The notes under the pieces: generated by a model
Seen by the model: the letters and a program-made list of their open reading frames with translations, nothing else
Databases searched by the model: none
Told to the model about the DNA's origin: nothing
From: Desulfurobacterium sp. TC5-1
GTDB taxonomy: Bacteria; Aquificota; Aquificia; Desulfurobacteriales; Desulfurobacteriaceae
NCBI RefSeq assembly: GCF_000421485.1
Contig: NZ_ATXC01000001.1
Span: forward strand, 1,295,087-1,359,086
Direction: 5' to 3'
Length of the DNA: 64,000 bases
Position numbers and translations under genes: made by a program
Part shown: positions 4,024 through 61,400 of the stretch, in pieces
Numbering within the stretch: the stretch's first letter is position 1
Layout of the letters: each line of letters opens with the position of its first letter

Positions 4024-4779
4024 TTAAAGCCTGACCGTTACACCTCTTTTCTTTAGATACTCTTTCAATTCTCTTATAGTCATCTCTTTAAAGTGAAAGA
4101 CAGAAGCAGCCAAAACAGCGTCCGCCTTACCCTTAACAAGCCCTTCGTAAAAGTGTTCCTTCGTTCCTGCTCCACCGGAAGCTATAACAGGAACAGAAAC
4201 GGCATCTGAAATTGCCCTCGTTAACTCTATATCGTAACCGGCCTTCGTTCCATCCCTATCCATAGAGGTTAAAAGAATCTCACCAGCCCCAAGATCAACA
4301 ACCCTTTTAGCCCACTCAACAGCGTCAATGCCTGTCGGCGTTCTTCCGCCGTGAATGTAAACCTCCCAGGAATCGCCACTTCTCCTTGCATCTATTGCAA
4401 CAACGATACATTGAGAACCAAAAATCCTCGCCCCTTCAGAGATAAGTTCCGGATTTTTAACGGCTGCCGTGTTTATAGAAACCTTATCGGCACCGGCGTT
4501 CAGCAAATTCCTTATATCCTCCACAGTTCTTACACCACCACCAACGGTAAGAGGCATAAAGACGCATTCTGCCGTTCGCCTGACAACATCTATCATTATG
4601 GATCTTTTCTCGTAACTTGCCGTTATATCAAGAAATACAAGCTCATCAGCCCCCTGTTCATCGTAAACTTTAGCGTTTTCAACAGGGTCACCGGCATCTA
4701 TGAGGTTTACAAAATTGACACCTTTAACAACTCTACCCTCTTTAACATCAAGACAGGGAATAATTCTTTTGGCAAGCAT
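4024..4779 (-). CDS. hisF: imidazole glycerol phosphate synthase subunit HisF
   Basis: HisF is the (beta/alpha)8 cyclase subunit that combines PRFAR with ammonia from HisH to give IGP and AICAR in histidine synthesis. Both catalytic aspartates are visible: D11 in [19 protein letters not shown] and D130 in [10 protein letters not shown]. The phosphate-binding loops (VGGGVRT, ASGGAG) are intact and 251 aa is the standard length. A GAGG site lies five bases before the ATG. No other his genes are in the window, so the pathway is scattered, as in many Aquificota. Confidence 0.98.
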
Positions 4780-4794
4780 GGCAACCTCACAAAA

Positions 4795-5745
4795 TCAAAG
4801 TGTTTCAAAAAACCACCTGAAAAACGGCTTCTTTATGGGATTTTCAACAGGGAAAATCTCAACCTTTTCACTTCCCTTCAGTATATCCCTTGCCTTCCGG
4901 GTGTAGATTGAATCGGGATACTTTGTTATCAGGGTTTTCAGGGTCTTTTCTCCCTCCTCCCTTTCCATCTCCGCCAGCTTCTGCCAGTTTTCAATATCAT
5001 GAAGAATGATGGAAATTCTTCTATCCCGAACCTTTACTTCCTCATCTGTTTCTGCCTCTGCAAGCTTCTCTTTTTCAGCATCAAGTTGCTCTTTTAAATC
5101 TTCAATTTTCTCCCTCGCCTGAATAGGTATAAAGTACCGGGCCCTGCCTATCAAAAACAGAAGTTTGTCAGGCTCTTCCACATCACTGTAAAGATTTTGA
5201 ACCTCTTCATATCTTTGAAGGGATGCTGTAAACTGGTGAAGCATATCGTAGGTTAACCCTATATAGACTATGTGTTCCGCCAGAATTTTCCTGCATTCTT
5301 TCCTGATCTCTTCCGCCTTTGATCTAAGAGGTGAGTCAGGATAAGTCTCTATAAACGTGTTTATGGCATCTAAAGCTCTCTTTGTAAAGGTTTGATCCCA
5401 CTGAGGACCTTTAACCAACTGAAGGTAACACAGGGAAAGATTAAAAAGTGCCCTGTCAGCGAACTTTGAAGCAGGAAAAAGGTTCAAAAATTCTTTATAC
5501 TCAAGGGCTGCATCGGTGTAGTTACCATTCTTAAAATAAGCATCAGCAAGCATTATCATTGCCTCTTCTTTCTGTGAAGGCGTAAGATCCTTGGAAAGAG
5601 CTTCCTTCAGATTGAGAATCGCTTCTTTCCAATTTTCCGATTTAACAGCTTCTGTTCCTTTATTAAAAAGCTCCTGTCCCGTCTGTACCCGCTTTACACA
5701 GCCAGATATGAGAATAAATGCCAGCAGCGGCAAAATCTTTTTCAC
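4795..5745 (-). CDS. bamD: outer membrane assembly lipoprotein BamD-like (TPR)
   Basis: The GTG start follows AAGGAGG. A lipoprotein signal peptide ends at C16 (FILISGC). Repeated TPR helices follow: ELFNKGTEAVKSENWKEAI, then ADAYFKNGNYTDAALEYKEFL and the FP-x-SKFADRALFNLS pattern typical of BamD. The family works with BamA to insert beta-barrel proteins in the outer membrane. At 316 aa it is longer than E. coli BamD (about 245), with a charged coiled-coil insertion near residues 205-245. It lies nine bases after the RNase G gene. A general TPR lipoprotein is the alternative. Confidence 0.75.
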   Translation of the reverse strand: MKKILPLLAFILISGCVKRVQTGQELFNKGTEAVKSENWKEAILNLKEALSKDLTPSQKEEAMIMLADAYFKNGNYTDAALEYKEFLNLFPASKFADRALFNLSLCYLQLVKGPQWDQTFTKRALDAINTFIETYPDSPLRSKAEEIRKECRKILAEHIVYIGLTYDMLHQFTASLQRYEEVQNLYSDVEEPDKLLFLIGRARYFIPIQAREKIEDLKEQLDAEKEKLAEAETDEEVKVRDRRISIILHDIENWQKLAEMEREEGEKTLKTLITKYPDSIYTRKARDILKGSEKVEIFPVENPIKKPFFRWFFETL

Positions 5746-48495: not shown

Positions 48496-49461
48496 TCAAG
48501 TCACCCTGTAAGAATCAAAATTTAGCAGGGGCTTTATTTTAATTTCTTCCCTTTTTCCATCCCTTTCAACCGCAACAAGAACAGCATCTCTGTTTTTACC
48601 GTCGGAATATCCTGCTACTATTCTTGAAGCAAGTTCAACATCTTCAGGTGAAAAAGAGTGTCTTAAAATAGCAGCAGGACCTGGAACGTCAACCGAGTAA
48701 AACAGAATATCCCCACCTTTCACAAAATTTTTAAGAAAAAGATTTTCCTCTCTGTTTCTTCCAACAACAAGCTTACCATCCGAAAGTCTAAAATGTCTGC
48801 CTATTTTTAAAAGGGCAATATCTCTTTTCGTCAACTGGTCGTGTTTAATCAAATCTTTTACCTTTTTTGCAAAAGCAGGTTGAGTTAAAAGACATCCACC
48901 TGCAGGTGTAGGTAAATCAGCATCTATCCCGAGAAACCTTACAATCTCGGGATACCTTTTCCTTGAACGTCCTTGAATATCTAAAAGCCAATCTCTCTTT
49001 ATAAATCCCTCTTTTTCATAAACTGTAGGTGGTAAAAGCTTTCCAGAAAGAGGTCTCAGAATTCGTTCTTCAAGACCCGCTATTTTTTCTATAAGCCGCA
49101 GAGCCTGAGCTCTTTGTGACATTGGACGCTGACCTACAACTTCACCTGTTGCAATTATTCCACCGCCGGCAGCCTCTTTTAATTTCCTGAGCATTAAAGC
49201 CTTACAATCAATACAGGGATTGGCGTTCTTTCCGTAGCCGTGAGGCGGATTCTTCAAAATGGGCAAAAACTCATCTGTAATGTCAAAAACCTTAAGTTCA
49301 ACACCTATTCTATCGGCAAGCCCTTTTAATTCACTCTCTTCCTTTCCAAAAAAGGGCGTTTTGAAGTGAACAGCCTCAACATCAAATCCTCTAAGTTTCA
49401 GCAATCTTGCGGCAATGATGCTATCAAGACCACCGGAAAACAGGAGAAAAACTTTTTTCAC
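48496..49461 (-). CDS. PP-loop (MnmA/ThiI-like) protein with a DUF814-like C-terminus
   Basis: The 321-aa protein has the PP-loop ATP-pyrophosphatase motif LFSGGLDSIIAA at the start, then NPCIDCKALML with two cysteines and IATGEVVGQRPMSQR, as in tRNA thiolation enzymes. The C-terminal part (RHFRLSDGKLVVGRNREEN) looks like the DUF814/NFACT-R fold. The combined family is conserved in thermophiles and is thought to modify tRNA or transfer sulfur, without a firm substrate. It is divergent from hpf. Confidence 0.8.
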   Translation of the reverse strand: MKKVFLLFSGGLDSIIAARLLKLRGFDVEAVHFKTPFFGKEESELKGLADRIGVELKVFDITDEFLPILKNPPHGYGKNANPCIDCKALMLRKLKEAAGGGIIATGEVVGQRPMSQRAQALRLIEKIAGLEERILRPLSGKLLPPTVYEKEGFIKRDWLLDIQGRSRKRYPEIVRFLGIDADLPTPAGGCLLTQPAFAKKVKDLIKHDQLTKRDIALLKIGRHFRLSDGKLVVGRNREENLFLKNFVKGGDILFYSVDVPGPAAILRHSFSPEDVELASRIVAGYSDGKNRDAVLVAVERDGKREEIKIKPLLNFDSYRVT

Positions 49462-50124: not shown

Positions 50125-50135
50125 TAAGAATTGAA

Positions 50136-50224
50136 GCCGCAGGGGTGGGACTTAGTCCCTGAGAGTCCGGGAAACCGGACAACCCTTTGAACCTGATCCG
50201 GGTAATGCCGGCGTAGGGAGCGGC
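50136..50224 (+). ncRNA. TPP riboswitch (THI element)
   Basis: The conserved thi-box cores are present: CTGAGA at 50159-50164 and ACCCTTTGAACCTGATCCGG followed by GTAATGCCGGCGTAGGGA. P1 is formed by GCCGC (50136-50140) and GCGGC (50220-50224). The optional P3a hairpin is short (GTCCGGGAAACCGGAC). It senses thiamine pyrophosphate and controls the thi4-thiC operon by transcription termination, as the downstream arms show. Confidence 0.97.
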
Positions 50225-50258
50225 TAAAATTCCTACTCTGCGTTAGGATTTTAGCCGC
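50220..50258 (+). promoter_or_regulatory. antiterminator hairpin of the TPP riboswitch
   Basis: GCGGCTAAAATTCCTA (50220-50235) pairs with TAGGATTTTAGCCGC (50244-50258) over 15 bp with one bulged T. Its left arm includes the 3' strand of riboswitch P1 and its right arm includes the 5' strand of the terminator, so it excludes both. It should form when TPP is low. Confidence 0.85.
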
Positions 50259-50319: not shown

Positions 50320-51114
50320 ATGGAGAACCTCAGCGAGATAAAAATCTCAAAAGCAATCATCGAGAGATTCACTGAGAAACTTCTCTCGAACCTTGAAGTT
50401 GACGTTGCAATTGTAGGCGGCGGACCTTCAGGCCTTGTGGCCGCATACTACCTTGCAAAAGAAGGACTCAGAGTGTCTCTTTTTGAAAGGAAACTCTCCA
50501 TCGGCGGCGGAATGTGGGCTGGCGCTATGTTCTTCAACGAAATAGTTGTCCAGGAAATGGGAAGAGAAATACTTGACGAATTCAGCGTTTCATACAGAAA
50601 ATACGAAGAAGGATACTACACTGCAGACGCCGTTGAAGCAGTAACAACAATAGCATCAAAAGCAGTTAAAGCTGGAGCAAAAATATTCAATGGTGTAACA
50701 GCTGAAGATGTTGTGCTCAAAAAAGTAAACGGTCAATATAAAGTTTGCGGCCTCGTCATAAACTGGAGCACCGTTGACATAACAGGGCTGATGGTTGATC
50801 CTTTAGTTGTTACATCAAATTACGTCATAGACGCCACAGGACACGACGCAACAATAGTTTCAACACTCCAGAAAAAGGCCGGCATAAAACTTGACACAGA
50901 AACAGGATGTGTAGTTGGTGAAAAACCGCTCTGGGCTTCTGTAGGTGAAGAAGACACCGTTAAAAACAGCAGAGAAGTCTATCCCGGCATCTACGTCAGC
51001 GGTATGGCAGCAAATGCCACCTGCGGTTCCCACAGAATGGGACCTGTTTTTGGAGGCATGCTCATGTCCGGGAAAAAGATAGCAATGGAAATAGCTCAAA
51101 AGCTTAAATCTTAA
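50320..51114 (+). CDS. thi4: Thi4-type thiazole synthase
   Basis: Thi4 makes the thiazole half of thiamine from NAD and glycine. The 264-aa sequence has the dinucleotide loop VGGGPSGLVAAYYL (G33-G38), FERKLSIGGGMWAGAMFF, and the C-terminal SGMAANATCGSHRMGPVFGGML. At the position where eukaryotic Thi4 has its sacrificial cysteine, the local motif here is GLMVDP with Met158, so this is a non-Cys Thi4 expected to use free sulfide catalytically, as archaeal forms do. The ATG has GGGAGG upstream. It lies behind the TPP riboswitch and 11 bases before thiC. Confidence 0.95.
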   Translation: MENLSEIKISKAIIERFTEKLLSNLEVDVAIVGGGPSGLVAAYYLAKEGLRVSLFERKLSIGGGMWAGAMFFNEIVVQEMGREILDEFSVSYRKYEEGYYTADAVEAVTTIASKAVKAGAKIFNGVTAEDVVLKKVNGQYKVCGLVINWSTVDITGLMVDPLVVTSNYVIDATGHDATIVSTLQKKAGIKLDTETGCVVGEKPLWASVGEEDTVKNSREVYPGIYVSGMAANATCGSHRMGPVFGGMLMSGKKIAMEIAQKLKS

Positions 51115-51125
51115 CTGGAGGCGTA

Positions 51126-52430
51126 ATGGCTACCCTTGTTGAACTTGTCAAAAGGGGAGAAATTCCCGCAGAAGTAAAAAAGGTCGCAGAAGAAGAAAAA
51201 AGAGACACTGAATATATAGTCAACGGTTTAATTGATGGAACCATTGTTATTCCTGCAAACATCTATCACAGAAGCAGGGATAACTTTACGCCGAAAGGTA
51301 TAGGAAAAGGGCTAAAAACAAAAGTCAACGTTAACTTAGGAACCTCCGCCGACGTTGAAGATATAGAACTTGAGCTGAAGAAATTAGAAGTTTCAATAAA
51401 GTATGGCACCGACGCCGTAATGGACCTCTCAACAGGAACCCGGATAGAAAAGACAAGAAAAATTATTGTAGAGCACTCACCCGTAATGGTTGGAACCGTC
51501 CCCATATACCAGGCGGTTGTTGAAGCAATAGAAAAGCATGGCTTTATGGGGAAAATGACCGTTGACGAACTCTTTAATGTTATAGAGAGACACTGCAAAG
51601 ACGGCGTTGACTTTATTACCGTTCACTGCGGCGTGACACTATCTTCATTAGAGCGGCTCAAAAAAGAAGGTAGACTGATGAACATCGTTTCAAGGGGCGG
51701 TGCACTTATTGCCGAATGGATGGTTTACAACGAAAAAGAAAATCCACTGTTTGAACACTACGACCGGCTCCTTGAAATAGCCAAAAGGTACGATGTAACA
51801 CTTTCTTTAGGCGACGGCATGCGGCCAGGGTGTCTCGCAGACGCAACAGACAGGTGTCAAATAGAAGAACTGATAACCTTAGGTGAATTAGTTGATAGAG
51901 CAAGAAAAGCAGACGTACAGGTGATGGTAGAAGGACCAGGACACGTGCCGCTCAACCAGATAGAGACAAACATCATACTTCAAAAAAGGCTATGCCATGG
52001 TGCACCGTTCTACGTATTGGGCCCTATCGTAACAGACATAGCACCGGGATACGACCACATAACGGCAGCAATCGGAGGTGCAATAGCCGCAAAAGCAGGA
52101 GCTGACTTCCTTTGTTATGTAACGCCGGCTGAACATTTAGCATTACCTGATGTTAATGATGTTAAAGAAGGGCTTATAGCATCAAAAATTGCAGGACATG
52201 CCGCAGATATTGTTAAAGGCGTACCTGGTGCAATGGAATGGGATATAGAAATGGCAAAAGCCAGAGATGCCCTTGACTGGGAAAGACAGTTTGAACTTGC
52301 ACTTGACCCCGAAAAGGCAAGAGAATACAGAAACAGAAGGGCTCCAAAGAAAGATGAAGAAACATGCAGTATGTGCGGTAATTTGTGTGCCGTTAAAACT
52401 TTCAACGAATACATCAAAAAGGAAAAGTAA
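51126..52430 (+). CDS. thiC: phosphomethylpyrimidine synthase ThiC
   Basis: ThiC is a non-canonical radical SAM enzyme that turns AIR into HMP-P for the pyrimidine half of thiamine. The 434-aa short form carries GTSADVEDIELELKKL, DAVMDLSTG, SRGGALIAEWM, LSLGDGMRPGCLADATD and VEGPGHVPLNQI, and ends with the [4Fe-4S] motif CSMCGNLC (CX2CX4C). It is co-transcribed with thi4 under the TPP riboswitch, so both halves of thiamine are controlled together. Confidence 0.98.
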   Translation: MATLVELVKRGEIPAEVKKVAEEEKRDTEYIVNGLIDGTIVIPANIYHRSRDNFTPKGIGKGLKTKVNVNLGTSADVEDIELELKKLEVSIKYGTDAVMDLSTGTRIEKTRKIIVEHSPVMVGTVPIYQAVVEAIEKHGFMGKMTVDELFNVIERHCKDGVDFITVHCGVTLSSLERLKKEGRLMNIVSRGGALIAEWMVYNEKENPLFEHYDRLLEIAKRYDVTLSLGDGMRPGCLADATDRCQIEELITLGELVDRARKADVQVMVEGPGHVPLNQIETNIILQKRLCHGAPFYVLGPIVTDIAPGYDHITAAIGGAIAAKAGADFLCYVTPAEHLALPDVNDVKEGLIASKIAGHAADIVKGVPGAMEWDIEMAKARDALDWERQFELALDPEKAREYRNRRAPKKDEETCSMCGNLCAVKTFNEYIKKEK

Positions 52431-52872: not shown

Positions 52873-53288
52873 TAAAAGTTATTGCCGTTGGAAAGATAGC
52901 ACCCCATTTAAAAGAAGCTCAAGAACACTACATCAATAGACTAAAAAAACTGACAGACATCGAAATTGTGAAAGTCAAGAAACAGAGAACAAAAGAAGAC
53001 GAAGGGGAACTGTTGCTTTCAAAAACAAAAGGTTTTATCATCGCCCTTGACGAAAGGGGAAAGGAGCTAACCTCAAAAGAGTTTGCAAAACTGTTACAAA
53101 AACATCGGCACATCTCTTTTGTAATCGGAGGTGCCGACGGCCTCTCAGAAAATGTCAAAAAAGAATCCAATATGTTGTTATCCCTATCAAAACTAACTCT
53201 CCAGCACGACATCGCAAGAATTGTCCTGCTTGAGCAGATATACCGGGGATTCCAGATCATAAAAGGAACACCTTACCACAGGGAGTGA
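52869..53288 (+). CDS. rlmH: 23S rRNA (pseudouridine1915-N3)-methyltransferase RlmH
   Basis: RlmH is a small SPOUT-class methyltransferase. The 139 aa include FIIALDERGKELTSKEFAKLL, FVIGGADGLSENVKKES (SAM-binding knot) and RIVLLEQIYRGFQIIKGTPYH at the C-terminus. It follows rsfS with an ATGA overlap, a conserved pair. One aspect differs slightly from E. coli: the final YHRE tail is one residue away from the usual YHH/YHK. Confidence 0.95.
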   Translation: MIKVIAVGKIAPHLKEAQEHYINRLKKLTDIEIVKVKKQRTKEDEGELLLSKTKGFIIALDERGKELTSKEFAKLLQKHRHISFVIGGADGLSENVKKESNMLLSLSKLTLQHDIARIVLLEQIYRGFQIIKGTPYHRE

Positions 53289-53290
53289 AG

Positions 53291-54166
53291 ATGTTATTAA
53301 AAAAATGGCAACCTAATACTGAAGCGATAGAAGAGCTAAATAGTATATTAAAATCATACAAACTTTCACAAAGGCAAAAAACACTTATAAATATTATGAT
53401 TACCAACATCAAAAAAGGAATTCAAGGAGAAAAAACAGCAGCGTACTACATAGATTATTATCTAAAGGATTCAAAAAATTGGGTTGTCATTCATGATTTA
53501 AGAATAGAATTCAAAGGCCAAATCGCACAAATAGATCATCTTTTAATCAATAGACTTTACGATATGTATGTTATAGAAACTAAAAATTTCCATGCTCAGT
53601 ATATGGAAATAAATGATTATGGCGAATTCACACTGAAATACAAAAATAGCAAAATCGGAATCCCATCTCCTATAGAACAAAATAAAAGGCATATTCATCT
53701 TTTAGACAAGATATTAACCAATAAAGATATGTATCCTCGCAGATTTATTCGAATAAAACCCAAATTCTTAAATGTAATTATGGTATCTCCTAACACAATA
53801 GTGAAAAGGTCTTCGAAATTTGACACAAGCAATATAATAAAAGCGGATATGATAATGAAATTCATTGAAGAAAAAATAGATAAAATGTCTATTACCGATA
53901 CGTTTTCCGCAATAGGCAAAATAGCATCTCATGAACAACTTATGAATTTCGGCAAAAAGATACTCATGTTACATAAACCTATTAAAATTGACTGGCTATC
54001 CTATTTTGGAATCAAAAAAGAACAGAAGAAAAAATACTTCTGTGCCAGATGTAAAAAAGACATTTCCGAAAAAGAAGCAACCTACTGCTGGAATCACAAA
54101 AGTTTATTCGGCGGGAAGGCTTATTGTTATGATTGTCAAAAATTTATAAAAAACGCTAAAATTTAG
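53291..54166 (+). CDS. NERD-domain protein with a C-terminal zinc-binding segment
   Basis: Residues about 38-150 form a nuclease-related NERD domain (GEKTAAYYIDYYL, then IAQIDHLLINRLYDMYVIETKNF with the D...E-x-K pattern of PD-(D/E)XK folds). The C-terminal 50 residues hold CARCKKDI and CYDCQKF with an intervening Cys, a likely zinc ribbon. A nucleic-acid role is likely but undefined. GGGAG before the ATG at 53291 favours it over the GTG at 53285. It sits between rlmH and selD in one operon, and its AT-rich codons are unlike its neighbours, which hints at insertion. Confidence 0.8.
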   Translation: MLLKKWQPNTEAIEELNSILKSYKLSQRQKTLINIMITNIKKGIQGEKTAAYYIDYYLKDSKNWVVIHDLRIEFKGQIAQIDHLLINRLYDMYVIETKNFHAQYMEINDYGEFTLKYKNSKIGIPSPIEQNKRHIHLLDKILTNKDMYPRRFIRIKPKFLNVIMVSPNTIVKRSSKFDTSNIIKADMIMKFIEEKIDKMSITDTFSAIGKIASHEQLMNFGKKILMLHKPIKIDWLSYFGIKKEQKKKYFCARCKKDISEKEATYCWNHKSLFGGKAYCYDCQKFIKNAKI

Positions 54167-54201
54167 CCAAATTCCCATAAAAACTGACTGGCGGAGCAAA
54201 A

Positions 54202-55245
54202 ATGGCAGACAAGTTTAAGCTGACAACAACAGTAAGAGCTTCTGGCTGAGGTGCAAAGCTAAGCCCGGTCGGGCTTGAAAAGGTTCTAAAAAATCTCAGC
54301 TTATATAGGGATAAAAACGTACTGATAGGACTTGAAACAGCAGAGGATGCAGGTGTCTATTTGTTAAACGAGACCACTGCGTTGATTCAAACTGCTGACT
54401 TCATAACACCTGTCGTTGATGACCCGTACATATACGGTCAGATAGCCGTTGCAAATGCCCTATCAGATATATACGCCATGGGAGGCACGCCTATTACCGC
54501 AATAAATCTGGTGATGTTCGCCTCATGCAACGTCCCTGAATCTTACTTGCCTAAAATCCTTCAGGGTGGCGCTGATAAACTAAAAGAGGCTGGCGTTTCT
54601 CTCATCGGCGGTCACACCGTTGACGATCTTGAAACAAAATACGGACTTGCCGCAACAGGCATAGTTCATCCTGAAAAAATTGTTAGAAATTCTACGGCAA
54701 AGCCCGGTGATATTCTTTACTACACAAAACCCTTAGGAATAGGAGTTATAACAACGGCTATAAAAGCTGACATGGCTGACGAAACAACTACAGAAGAAGC
54801 ATCTAAAGTCATGATAACACTCAACAAAGACACCGCAGAAGTTATGAAAGAGATAGGTGTCAACGCCTGTACAGACATAACAGGATTTGGACTTTTAGGT
54901 CATCTATACGAAATGGTGAAATACTCAAAAGTAAACGCAATCATAAATATAAACGCTTTTGATTTTCTTCCTCAATCAATAGAATTTGCTGAAATGGGAC
55001 TGTTCCCGGCAGCAACCTACGAAAACATAGATTACGTTGGAAACAATGTAACATTTAATAGTAATATCAAAGAAGAGCTACAGCTTTTACTGTTTGATCC
55101 CCAAACATCCGGTGGACTGCTCATATCTGTTCCAGAAAATAAAAAAGGTATCTTTGAAGAAAAATGTAAGTTGAAAAACTTAAGTTGCTACGAAATAGGC
55201 AAAATAACGGAAAAGGGAACCGGAAAGATTAGAGTCAGAGGATAA
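54202..55245 (+). CDS. selD: selenide, water dikinase SelD containing selenocysteine
   Basis: SelD makes selenophosphate from selenide and ATP. Reading through the TGA at 54247-54249 as selenocysteine 16 gives a full 347-aa protein: the active-site stretch VRASG-U-GAKLSP aligns with the GCGCK motif region of E. coli SelD (C17, K20). The rest is normal (DFITPVVDDPYIYGQIAVANALSDIYAMGG region, ITGFGLLGHLYEM). A hairpin with a GGTC loop follows the TGA by 17 nt. GGCGGAG lies before the ATG. Standard gene callers would begin this gene wrongly near 54361. Confidence 0.95.
54247..54276 (+). promoter_or_regulatory. selenocysteine codon and bacterial SECIS-like hairpin
   Basis: The in-frame TGA at 54247 is followed by a stem AAGCCC (54261-54266), apical loop GGTC (54267-54270) and GGGCTT (54271-54276). 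The loop sequence and the 17-nt distance from the TGA match the E. coli fdhF SECIS, which SelB recognises through a GGUC apical loop. Confidence 0.8.
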
Positions 55246-58275: not shown

Positions 58276-59565
58276 ATGAAACTAAAAATACTAATTTCAA
58301 CACTGAGTTTTCCTGTTATTTTGTTCTCCTGCGCCTCTTCACAACCCGCTTCCCAGACCACAACACTTCAGGACGCTGAAATTCAAGCAATACAATCAAA
58401 ATCAGAAAAGGCATTTGAAGAACTTGAAAACGAATTCCAACCTGAAAAACCATCAACATCCGAAAACACACCAGAAACCATCCGCAAAGAAAAACCAGCC
58501 TCTCTCGAAGAAGAAATCGGAACAGTTCCTCAATACAAATCGGGAAAAATCGTTCTAAAAGAGTGTGCCTACGGAAAAGACCAAAAAGACGCAAGAAGCA
58601 CTGCCGTTAAAAGACTATCACAGGACATACTTTCAAACGTCAGTGCCCTTGAAATTGCACAAAAAAGTCTCAGCAAAGGCAAAATATCCCGCGAATACTT
58701 CTCACAAACTGTAATTGGAACAAGAACAATCCTTAAAGGACTCAGATTTCAGGACTTAGGAAGAACGAAAGAAGGCTATAAAGTGTGTGCCATAATAACA
58801 GAAGAAGGATTAAAGAAGACTATTGCCTACTTAAGCTCTACACTAAAAAGGGACATGTTGCACCTTTCAAAAGATGAATTACGAAAATTACAAAATCAAG
58901 CTTTTATTCTTCTATCTCTTGCAGAATCGGCAAATGACAAAAACACCATTAACTTTGCAATGAAAAAACTAAAATACATAGACAGGCTTCTAAACTTTGG
59001 CAGACTTAACGTTAACACCATGCCAGCCAGCGCGGTAATAGTCATAGGGAAAAAGGAATACTCACCCGGAGAAATTATCTTTCTTGAACCGGAAAAAGAG
59101 TATTTCATAACTATTAAATCTAAGGGTTACAAAACTGTAAGAAAGAAAATCTACATAGGCCGAGGGGAAATAAAAAATATCTCCATAGAACTTCCTAAAA
59201 AGGTTGAAGGATTCATCCCGGTAGCTATAGAAGCAAACATGCCTTTCGTAACAGACATAGCAAAAAAAGCACTGATAGATAGTGGATTTAACGTTCAAAA
59301 CCAATCTGAAAACAAGTTAACCATCACGGTCAAAGACTACTCTTCCAGGGTAAAGGGATACACGAAACACGAATTAGAAGTAATAGCCACTTTTTATGCT
59401 AACGGTCAACCTATTACAAGTAAAAAAGGAAAAATAAAACCTTTCTTCACAACCGAAGAAACGGAGAACTCCATACTTAAGTCAAAGTTGGAAAAATTAA
59501 CAAAAGCCGTTTTAAACAGCCTGCTGAACAACATTGACACAAAACGATTAGGAGGAGGAAAATGA
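58276..59565 (+). CDS. lipoprotein with LPP20-like and PEGA domains
   Basis: The 429-aa protein has a lipoprotein signal ending at C19 (FPVILFSC), a polar linker rich in Glu/Pro/Thr (about residues 20-90), an LPP20-like module (KDARSTAVKRLSQDILS, then GYKVCAIIT), a helical stretch, and a PEGA domain near residues 238-295 (RLNVNTMPASAVIVIGKKEY, GYKTVRKKIYIGRGE). PEGA domains are surface or wall-associated. A further alpha/beta domain ends the protein. Its stop overlaps the next ATG (ATGA). Confidence 0.7.
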   Translation: MKLKILISTLSFPVILFSCASSQPASQTTTLQDAEIQAIQSKSEKAFEELENEFQPEKPSTSENTPETIRKEKPASLEEEIGTVPQYKSGKIVLKECAYGKDQKDARSTAVKRLSQDILSNVSALEIAQKSLSKGKISREYFSQTVIGTRTILKGLRFQDLGRTKEGYKVCAIITEEGLKKTIAYLSSTLKRDMLHLSKDELRKLQNQAFILLSLAESANDKNTINFAMKKLKYIDRLLNFGRLNVNTMPASAVIVIGKKEYSPGEIIFLEPEKEYFITIKSKGYKTVRKKIYIGRGEIKNISIELPKKVEGFIPVAIEANMPFVTDIAKKALIDSGFNVQNQSENKLTITVKDYSSRVKGYTKHELEVIATFYANGQPITSKKGKIKPFFTTEETENSILKSKLEKLTKAVLNSLLNNIDTKRLGGGK

Positions 59566-61400
59566 GAAAAGCGCTCTTTGCACTCACTATCTGTCTCGCC
59601 CTAACAGGAAACGTATTCGCAGTAGAAAACACCGGTACCCTAACTTCTGACATAACACAGAAAAAATACGAAAGAAAAACCGCCGTCAGCATTGGTGAAC
59701 TCGAGTTCCAAAAAACGTTTGTCAGGCTGCCCGTAATAGACAACACTAAAAGGGGAGCCGCCAATGTAATAACAAGCATTATAAGATCCGTGACGGGAAA
59801 CACGGTTTATACCTATCCCATAACAGATGCTCAAATCGAAGAGCTAACAAGGACATTTTATAAATATGTAATCACACAACGATTCGATAAGCTTATCATC
59901 CTTCCAGATCAGGTTATCTTAATGACAAAAACGGGCGAAGCTACGCTAAACGCTCAACTTCCGCAACCATCCATTCCACAGGGAATCGGTTTAAACGAAT
60001 ACAGATCAAAAGTTGAAAGGTACCTAAACGGCAATATCGCACCAATAATGAAAAAACTGATGGAAATCACGTTAGATCAAAGATACAGGGAACTTCCCGA
60101 ACAGGAGAAGGCAACCTTTATAACGCAAAAGGCTAAAGAACTCGGCCTAACTGCAGAAGTAGCGGAAAAACTAATGAACTCAGGATTCGCCTTTGCAACA
60201 TACATCCCGACCATAGAAGGAGCCTTTTCTCTTAATATATCTCAAGGCCTTGAAAAACTTACAGCACCCTACAACGCAAAGATCTCTTTACAGGCCAAAC
60301 CAATCCTCCTCGTATATAAATTCGACGGCGATAAAGGAAAATTCACCTTTTACAAAGAGATCAGGGGAGACTCAGGTGCAACCATTGAAAGTAAACCTCT
60401 AAAGGTGCCAATATACAATCAAGCTTTCTACCGGGACCTCTTTAACAAAACACTCTTTACTACAGTCAAAGCCGCCGCAATAAACACCGGAATGAAACTA
60501 AAAGAAGATGATAACTTCGCAATATTCACACCGGCAGAAGAGGTGGAAGATAAAACATTTAAAGCTAAAATCGGTGTAGCAGAAGCCATAAGAATAGACG
60601 CACCGTTTGACATATATGAATTTGAGAACGGTAAGAAAGTTTATAAAGGATTCGGTAAGGCAAGAGAAGTGGCCTATAACTGCGAAATTAATTCAACGAA
60701 CAAGACAAAATTCGACATTATAAAAGGAAAGGCAGAAGAGTATGATTTACTGAGAGAGCATCCATGGAGCGGCATTCTTTTCGGAATTCAGGGAGGAATG
60801 ACACCGTTTACTGTAACAGAGGTGGCAGGTTACACGGCAGATGGCGGCGGAAATTGGGGCACAATGAGAGTAACCATTGATGCAGATCTTGGCTACATTA
60901 GAAACTCTAAATTACTCTCAGAATGGTGGCTCAGACTGTTCGCCGGCGCCGGGTCAGGCGGCGATGACATCACCATTCCTGCTTTAGGTGCAACAATATC
61001 GCCTGACAGTTATATTGAAGGTGGCCTCGGTATTTATAAAAGAATATACCTTGGAACAACAGGACTTGCAGTTACCCCCGGAATAGACCTGTCATATAGA
61101 TACCTCCAGTTTACCGGAACAGGCGGCGATAAGCTGACCATAGGCGCCGTAACAACAACACCCCATGTGGGTGTCGTTTACAACATTTCCGCAAACTTTG
61201 AAATAAACGGAGAAATCGGCTACCCTGTCAATGTATCTTCCGACACAACATACACAGACATATGGGGCATCCAGTACACCGGAACTGCCCAAACAGAAGG
61301 TGGTGTAAACTTCTTTATAGGTGCATCCTACCACTTCGGGATAGTGGGCAGTCTGTCTAAACTTTACTCTGAACCGCCTTCCTGCAGGAGAACAAAATGA
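59562..61400 (+). CDS. exported protein with a C-terminal outer-membrane beta-barrel-like domain
   Basis: The 612-aa protein begins with a signal peptide (MRKALFALTICLALTGNVFA). Residues about 20-390 are a mixed periplasmic region with a helical SIIRSVTGN segment. The last 220 residues alternate Gly/aromatic/polar strands (LFGIQGGMTPFTV, ADLGYIRNSKLLSEWWLRLF, PGIDLSYRYLQFTG, FFIGASYHFG), consistent with an eight-stranded barrel. No named family is recognised. The last 14 residues after the final strand are polar. It is coupled by ATGA to both neighbours. Confidence 0.65.
   Translation: MRKALFALTICLALTGNVFAVENTGTLTSDITQKKYERKTAVSIGELEFQKTFVRLPVIDNTKRGAANVITSIIRSVTGNTVYTYPITDAQIEELTRTFYKYVITQRFDKLIILPDQVILMTKTGEATLNAQLPQPSIPQGIGLNEYRSKVERYLNGNIAPIMKKLMEITLDQRYRELPEQEKATFITQKAKELGLTAEVAEKLMNSGFAFATYIPTIEGAFSLNISQGLEKLTAPYNAKISLQAKPILLVYKFDGDKGKFTFYKEIRGDSGATIESKPLKVPIYNQAFYRDLFNKTLFTTVKAAAINTGMKLKEDDNFAIFTPAEEVEDKTFKAKIGVAEAIRIDAPFDIYEFENGKKVYKGFGKAREVAYNCEINSTNKTKFDIIKGKAEEYDLLREHPWSGILFGIQGGMTPFTVTEVAGYTADGGGNWGTMRVTIDADLGYIRNSKLLSEWWLRLFAGAGSGGDDITIPALGATISPDSYIEGGLGIYKRIYLGTTGLAVTPGIDLSYRYLQFTGTGGDKLTIGAVTTTPHVGVVYNISANFEINGEIGYPVNVSSDTTYTDIWGIQYTGTAQTEGGVNFFIGASYHFGIVGSLSKLYSEPPSCRRTK

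Follow-up and report, generated by a model that had tools for sequence, protein, structure and literature searches.

Selenophosphate synthetase of a Desulfurobacterium-like bacterium: a conserved in-frame UGA, almost certainly read as selenocysteine, followed by a GGUC-loop SECIS hairpin

The SECIS element of the Escherichia coli fdhF gene carries a GGUC apical motif that is recognised by SelB. In 2005 the selenophosphate synthetase (SelD) of Aquifex aeolicus was predicted to be a selenoprotein (PMC1242214), a survey of 2006 reported FdhA and SelD as the most widespread bacterial selenoproteins (PMC1794560), and a review of 2026 describes SelD as the second most expansive selenoprotein family of prokaryotes (PMC13188914). 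Many bacteria, the related Aquifex among them, are already known to encode selenocysteine (Sec) in SelD by UGA, and the case described here is correct but ordinary, a further example of a well-described family. The gene comes from a 64,000-nucleotide stretch of DNA from Desulfurobacterium sp. TC5-1 (the window, to whose first letter the positions refer), and a literature text search with incomplete coverage returned no paper combining Desulfurobacterium and selenoprotein.

The selD gene is located on the plus strand at 54202..55245 and encodes a selenophosphate synthetase (selenide, water dikinase) of 347 residues with Sec at residue 16. A plausible ribosome-binding site (GGCGGA, 54191..54196, plus strand) was recognised by eye ahead of the ATG at 54202. 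Translation confirmed a single frame of 347 codons, open throughout and broken only by the TGA at 54247..54249 (codon 16), as the initial annotation had proposed. Its further statement that default annotation would truncate the gene to about 54361 also proved right, as an ORF finder blind to Sec takes the TGA as a stop and begins at the first start after it (TTG 54361); the start of selD is consequently corrected from 54361 to 54202.

The identity of the product was established with two curated models, the full-length profile TIGR00476 (371.6 bits, cut-off 125) and NF002098 (331.4 bits, cut-off 299). The closest solved structure is 2yye, a selenide, water dikinase (240 bits), followed by 3u0o (234 bits), and the cysteine of both aligns with the UGA, so that the TGA does occupy the active-site Cys position (SG-U-GAKLSP) to which it had been assigned from the sequence. 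We take 2yye, together with 2zod and 2zau, to be the Aquifex aeolicus enzyme. The peptide around the UGA reads VRASG-U-GAKLSPVGLE, where SG-U-GAK fits the SG-C/U-xxK motif of the N-terminal glycine-rich loop, with its catalytic pair of Cys/Sec and Lys (PMC7595633).

Directly upstream of selD (53285-54166) there is a gene for a protein with a NERD (nuclease-related) domain and a C-terminal cysteine-rich stretch. Elsewhere in the window, a TPP riboswitch (50131-50236; 85.2 bits) precedes the ORFs 50320-51114 and 51126-52430, which by eye resemble thiamine-synthesis genes (thi4-like and thiC-like), and a gene on the minus strand (48496-49461) encodes a fusion of a ThiI/MnmA-like domain with an NFACT-R RNA-binding domain, which stays below the curated cut-off of each named tRNA-thiolation family.

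Genome searches recovered SelD over most of its length from 20 other Desulfurobacteriaceae and 9 Aquificaceae. Each of the 30 genes (21 from the family, including that of the window, and 9 from Aquificaceae) contains exactly one in-frame TGA, always at the same codon. In a species-level genome collection, 80 named SelD loci were considered, the nearest of them from Desulfurobacterium and Desulfurobacteriaceae; the site was readable in 75, with TGA in 63 and TGC or TGT in 12. The segment that follows the site folds better after TGA than after Cys codons (mean -6.9 versus -3.7 kcal/mol, p = 0.0015), and some Cys-type genes retain a hairpin at the same place, perhaps as a relic.

In the window, the TGA is followed by a hairpin on the plus strand (54261..54276; AAGCCC-GGUC-GGGCUU) with a 6-bp stem and the GGUC loop at 54267-54270. 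The GGTC-looped stem of the initial annotation was thus upheld, whereas the distance of 17 nt given for it is that of the apical loop, the stem starting 11 nt after the TGA. The published criteria for bacterial SECIS elements ask for a loop of 3-9 nt with a G in its first two positions, an upper stem of 4-16 bp, a distance of 16-37 nt from the UGA and a minimum free energy of at most -7.5 kcal/mol (PMC13188914). The selD hairpin lies within all these limits (loop of 4 nt, GGUC; stem of 6-7 bp; 17 nt; -10.4 to -11.9 kcal/mol), and the published model includes a loop in which pairing is possible between the first and the last base around G-G/U (PMC13188914). No SECIS family in Rfam matched the hairpin, even at a permissive threshold.

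The 24-nt segment of the hairpin folds with -10.4 kcal/mol, compared with a mean of -2.6 (s.d. 2.1) in synonymous recodings, 0.4% of which reach this value. Stem length by itself is not significant, since 13% of the synonymous recodings of the same peptide match it, and comparative evidence therefore gives better support for the hairpin. Codons AGC CCG GTC GGG are identical in 20 of the 21 Desulfurobacteriaceae genes, with an entropy of 0.28 bits per codon (mean of 1.5 at other invariant four- or sixfold degenerate residues), and they rank among the least variable synonymous codons of selD; low synonymous variation in the five stem codons is significant over these 21 genes (p = 0.0002). The codon immediately 5' of the UGA is as fixed as those of the hairpin. 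Besides, one genome has both AGT for AGC and GGA for GGG, which keeps the pair (C-G to U-A), and in another the loop G-GU-C has become A-GU-U, again with the pair kept. Altogether three pairs have changed on both sides, each change in a single sequence, and none of 500 shuffles reached this number.

The initial annotation had considered that absence of selB and selC would speak against Sec. The genome contains selA (613.6 bits), selB (381.6 bits; an ORF of 622 amino acids) and a tRNA-Sec (selC) with the anticodon TCA (UCA), as well as mnmH/ybbB, which confirms a complete selenium-use system in this Desulfurobacterium-like bacterium. Among 41 genomes searched, those with a recognisable SelD are the ones with selA plus a single addition, the Aquificaceae genome G029.

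A second gene with an in-frame UGA was found in the same genome (locus L178, G000:C1:53500-54700, TGA at 479-481 of the locus). It encodes a PrxU-like peroxiredoxin with the UGA at the peroxidatic position (FYPADFTFV-U-PTE), a feature also seen in the other family members read, and its hairpin (AGCUGC-GGUC-GCAGCU) has the 17-nt spacing of selD. This GGUC hairpin, common to two unrelated genes, probably shows what the SelB of the lineage recognises. The idea of SelD as the sole selenoprotein in the genome, serving itself and selenouridine, was attractive at first because formate dehydrogenase had no match at a strict threshold and no FlpD/MvhD was found, but it was rejected on account of the peroxiredoxin.

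The search for selenoproteins covered a small number of families and two loop patterns, and the resulting list is partial. The pattern TGA-N(15-17)-CGGTCG gave 5 matches in the genome and the reversed control pattern 15; of the 5, a stem is formed only in SelD and in the peroxiredoxin, with 7 pairs in each case, and the others have 1 or 2 pairs. The pattern GCC-GGTC-GGC occurs four times, with support as a SECIS for SelD only: one of the other matches lies inside the intact ORF 59562-61400 and lacks such support, another is near an in-frame TGA with no known family context, and the last yielded no candidate frame. With a covariance model built on the hairpin of SelD, SelD scored 59.7 bits and the next sequence 13.9; this model is too specific and missed the peroxiredoxin.

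A small hydrogenase large subunit (hydrogenase/sulfhydrogenase-like) has a UGA near its C-terminus in other genera of the family (DP-U-IACAVH; L189, L190, L191, L192 and L194) and Cys instead in the genus of the window (DPCISCSVH; in the genome of the window, L195 59-1366). In two relatives (L065 and L066; G012 and G005), the formate dehydrogenase alpha subunit has an in-frame UGA and a GGUC-loop hairpin; in the remaining members of the family, homologues either contain no UGA or are absent.

These data indicate that the UGA at the catalytic codon of selD is almost certainly read as Sec, and we hold with great confidence that the gene encodes a Sec-containing selenophosphate synthetase. The rival that survives best, though very improbable, is that the UGA is a relic, either because translation begins later and omits the Sec loop or because selD is no longer decoded. 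A start is available at 54361, and G029 (Aquificaceae; one contig, listed as 100% complete) offers a precedent: its tRNA-Sec gene and its UGA-containing selD with hairpin are intact, no selA was found, selB has an internal deletion that keeps only the two ends, and mnmH is a short remnant (L157 3722-4305; L158 around 4539-5519, minus strand; L159 3610-3709; G029:C1:644142-644327). The Sec system of G029 is apparently caught in decay, and its selD makes clear that a conserved UGA alone is no proof of decoding. However, selA, selB, selC and mnmH are intact in the genome of the window, which has its second UGA gene too, and a start at 54361 would drop the entire catalytic loop, whose residues and codons are conserved. 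Even less probable is that a near-cognate or reassigned tRNA inserts another amino acid at the UGA, such as Trp or Cys; the sequence alone is compatible with it, but the genome has a full Sec system and selD a SECIS hairpin, homologues elsewhere carry Cys or UGA at this position, and the ORFs of the window end normally, with no sign of a general sense reading of UGA. The possibility of a Cys-type selD with a sequencing error or a recent nonsense mutation (a pseudogene), which the initial annotation would have seen in relatives with a sense codon, can be practically discarded: a single base separates TGA from TGC or TGT, but nothing else was found in its favour, the TGA is not an error because all 30 genes compared carry it, the rest of the frame is intact and the hairpin codons are under purifying selection.

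From the established knowledge on SelA, SelB, SelC and SelD we infer that Sec is actually inserted at this UGA, what its catalytic role is and how the selenophosphate is used. A ribosome at codon 16 would meet SelB carrying GTP and Sec-tRNA-Sec, the GGUC hairpin just downstream would hold SelB at the UGA, and Sec would be inserted. In the mobile N-terminal loop, this Sec would be the reactive residue, acting with the lysine three residues on, and the enzyme would make selenophosphate from selenide and ATP. The product may then be delivered to SelA, providing Sec for SelD itself and for the peroxiredoxin, and to MnmH for 2-selenouridine in tRNA. It is conceivable, but rather unlikely, that the UGA works as a selenium-sensing feedback switch giving all-or-none selenium use: scarce selenium would truncate SelD and selenophosphate would drop further, with a joint shutdown of tRNA selenouridylation and of the remaining selenoprotein genes.

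Regarding known systems, the SelD of the window is like the Sec-SelD of Aquifex aeolicus in enzyme family, class of bacteria, UGA codon and SECIS hairpin directly behind it. Its identity to the Aquificaceae proteins in the comparison is about 40-44%, and its apical loop has 4 nt (GGUC) whereas theirs has 3 nt (GGN). The Sec-SelD of Clostridia, Campylobacterota, Helicobacter and others likewise has its UGA at this codon and a hairpin behind it, although across other bacteria the sequence and loop of the hairpin vary and some relatives have Cys. With the SECIS of E. coli fdhF the GGUC apical motif is shared, but the gene is a different one and the GGUC of the window is a tetraloop closed directly by C-G.
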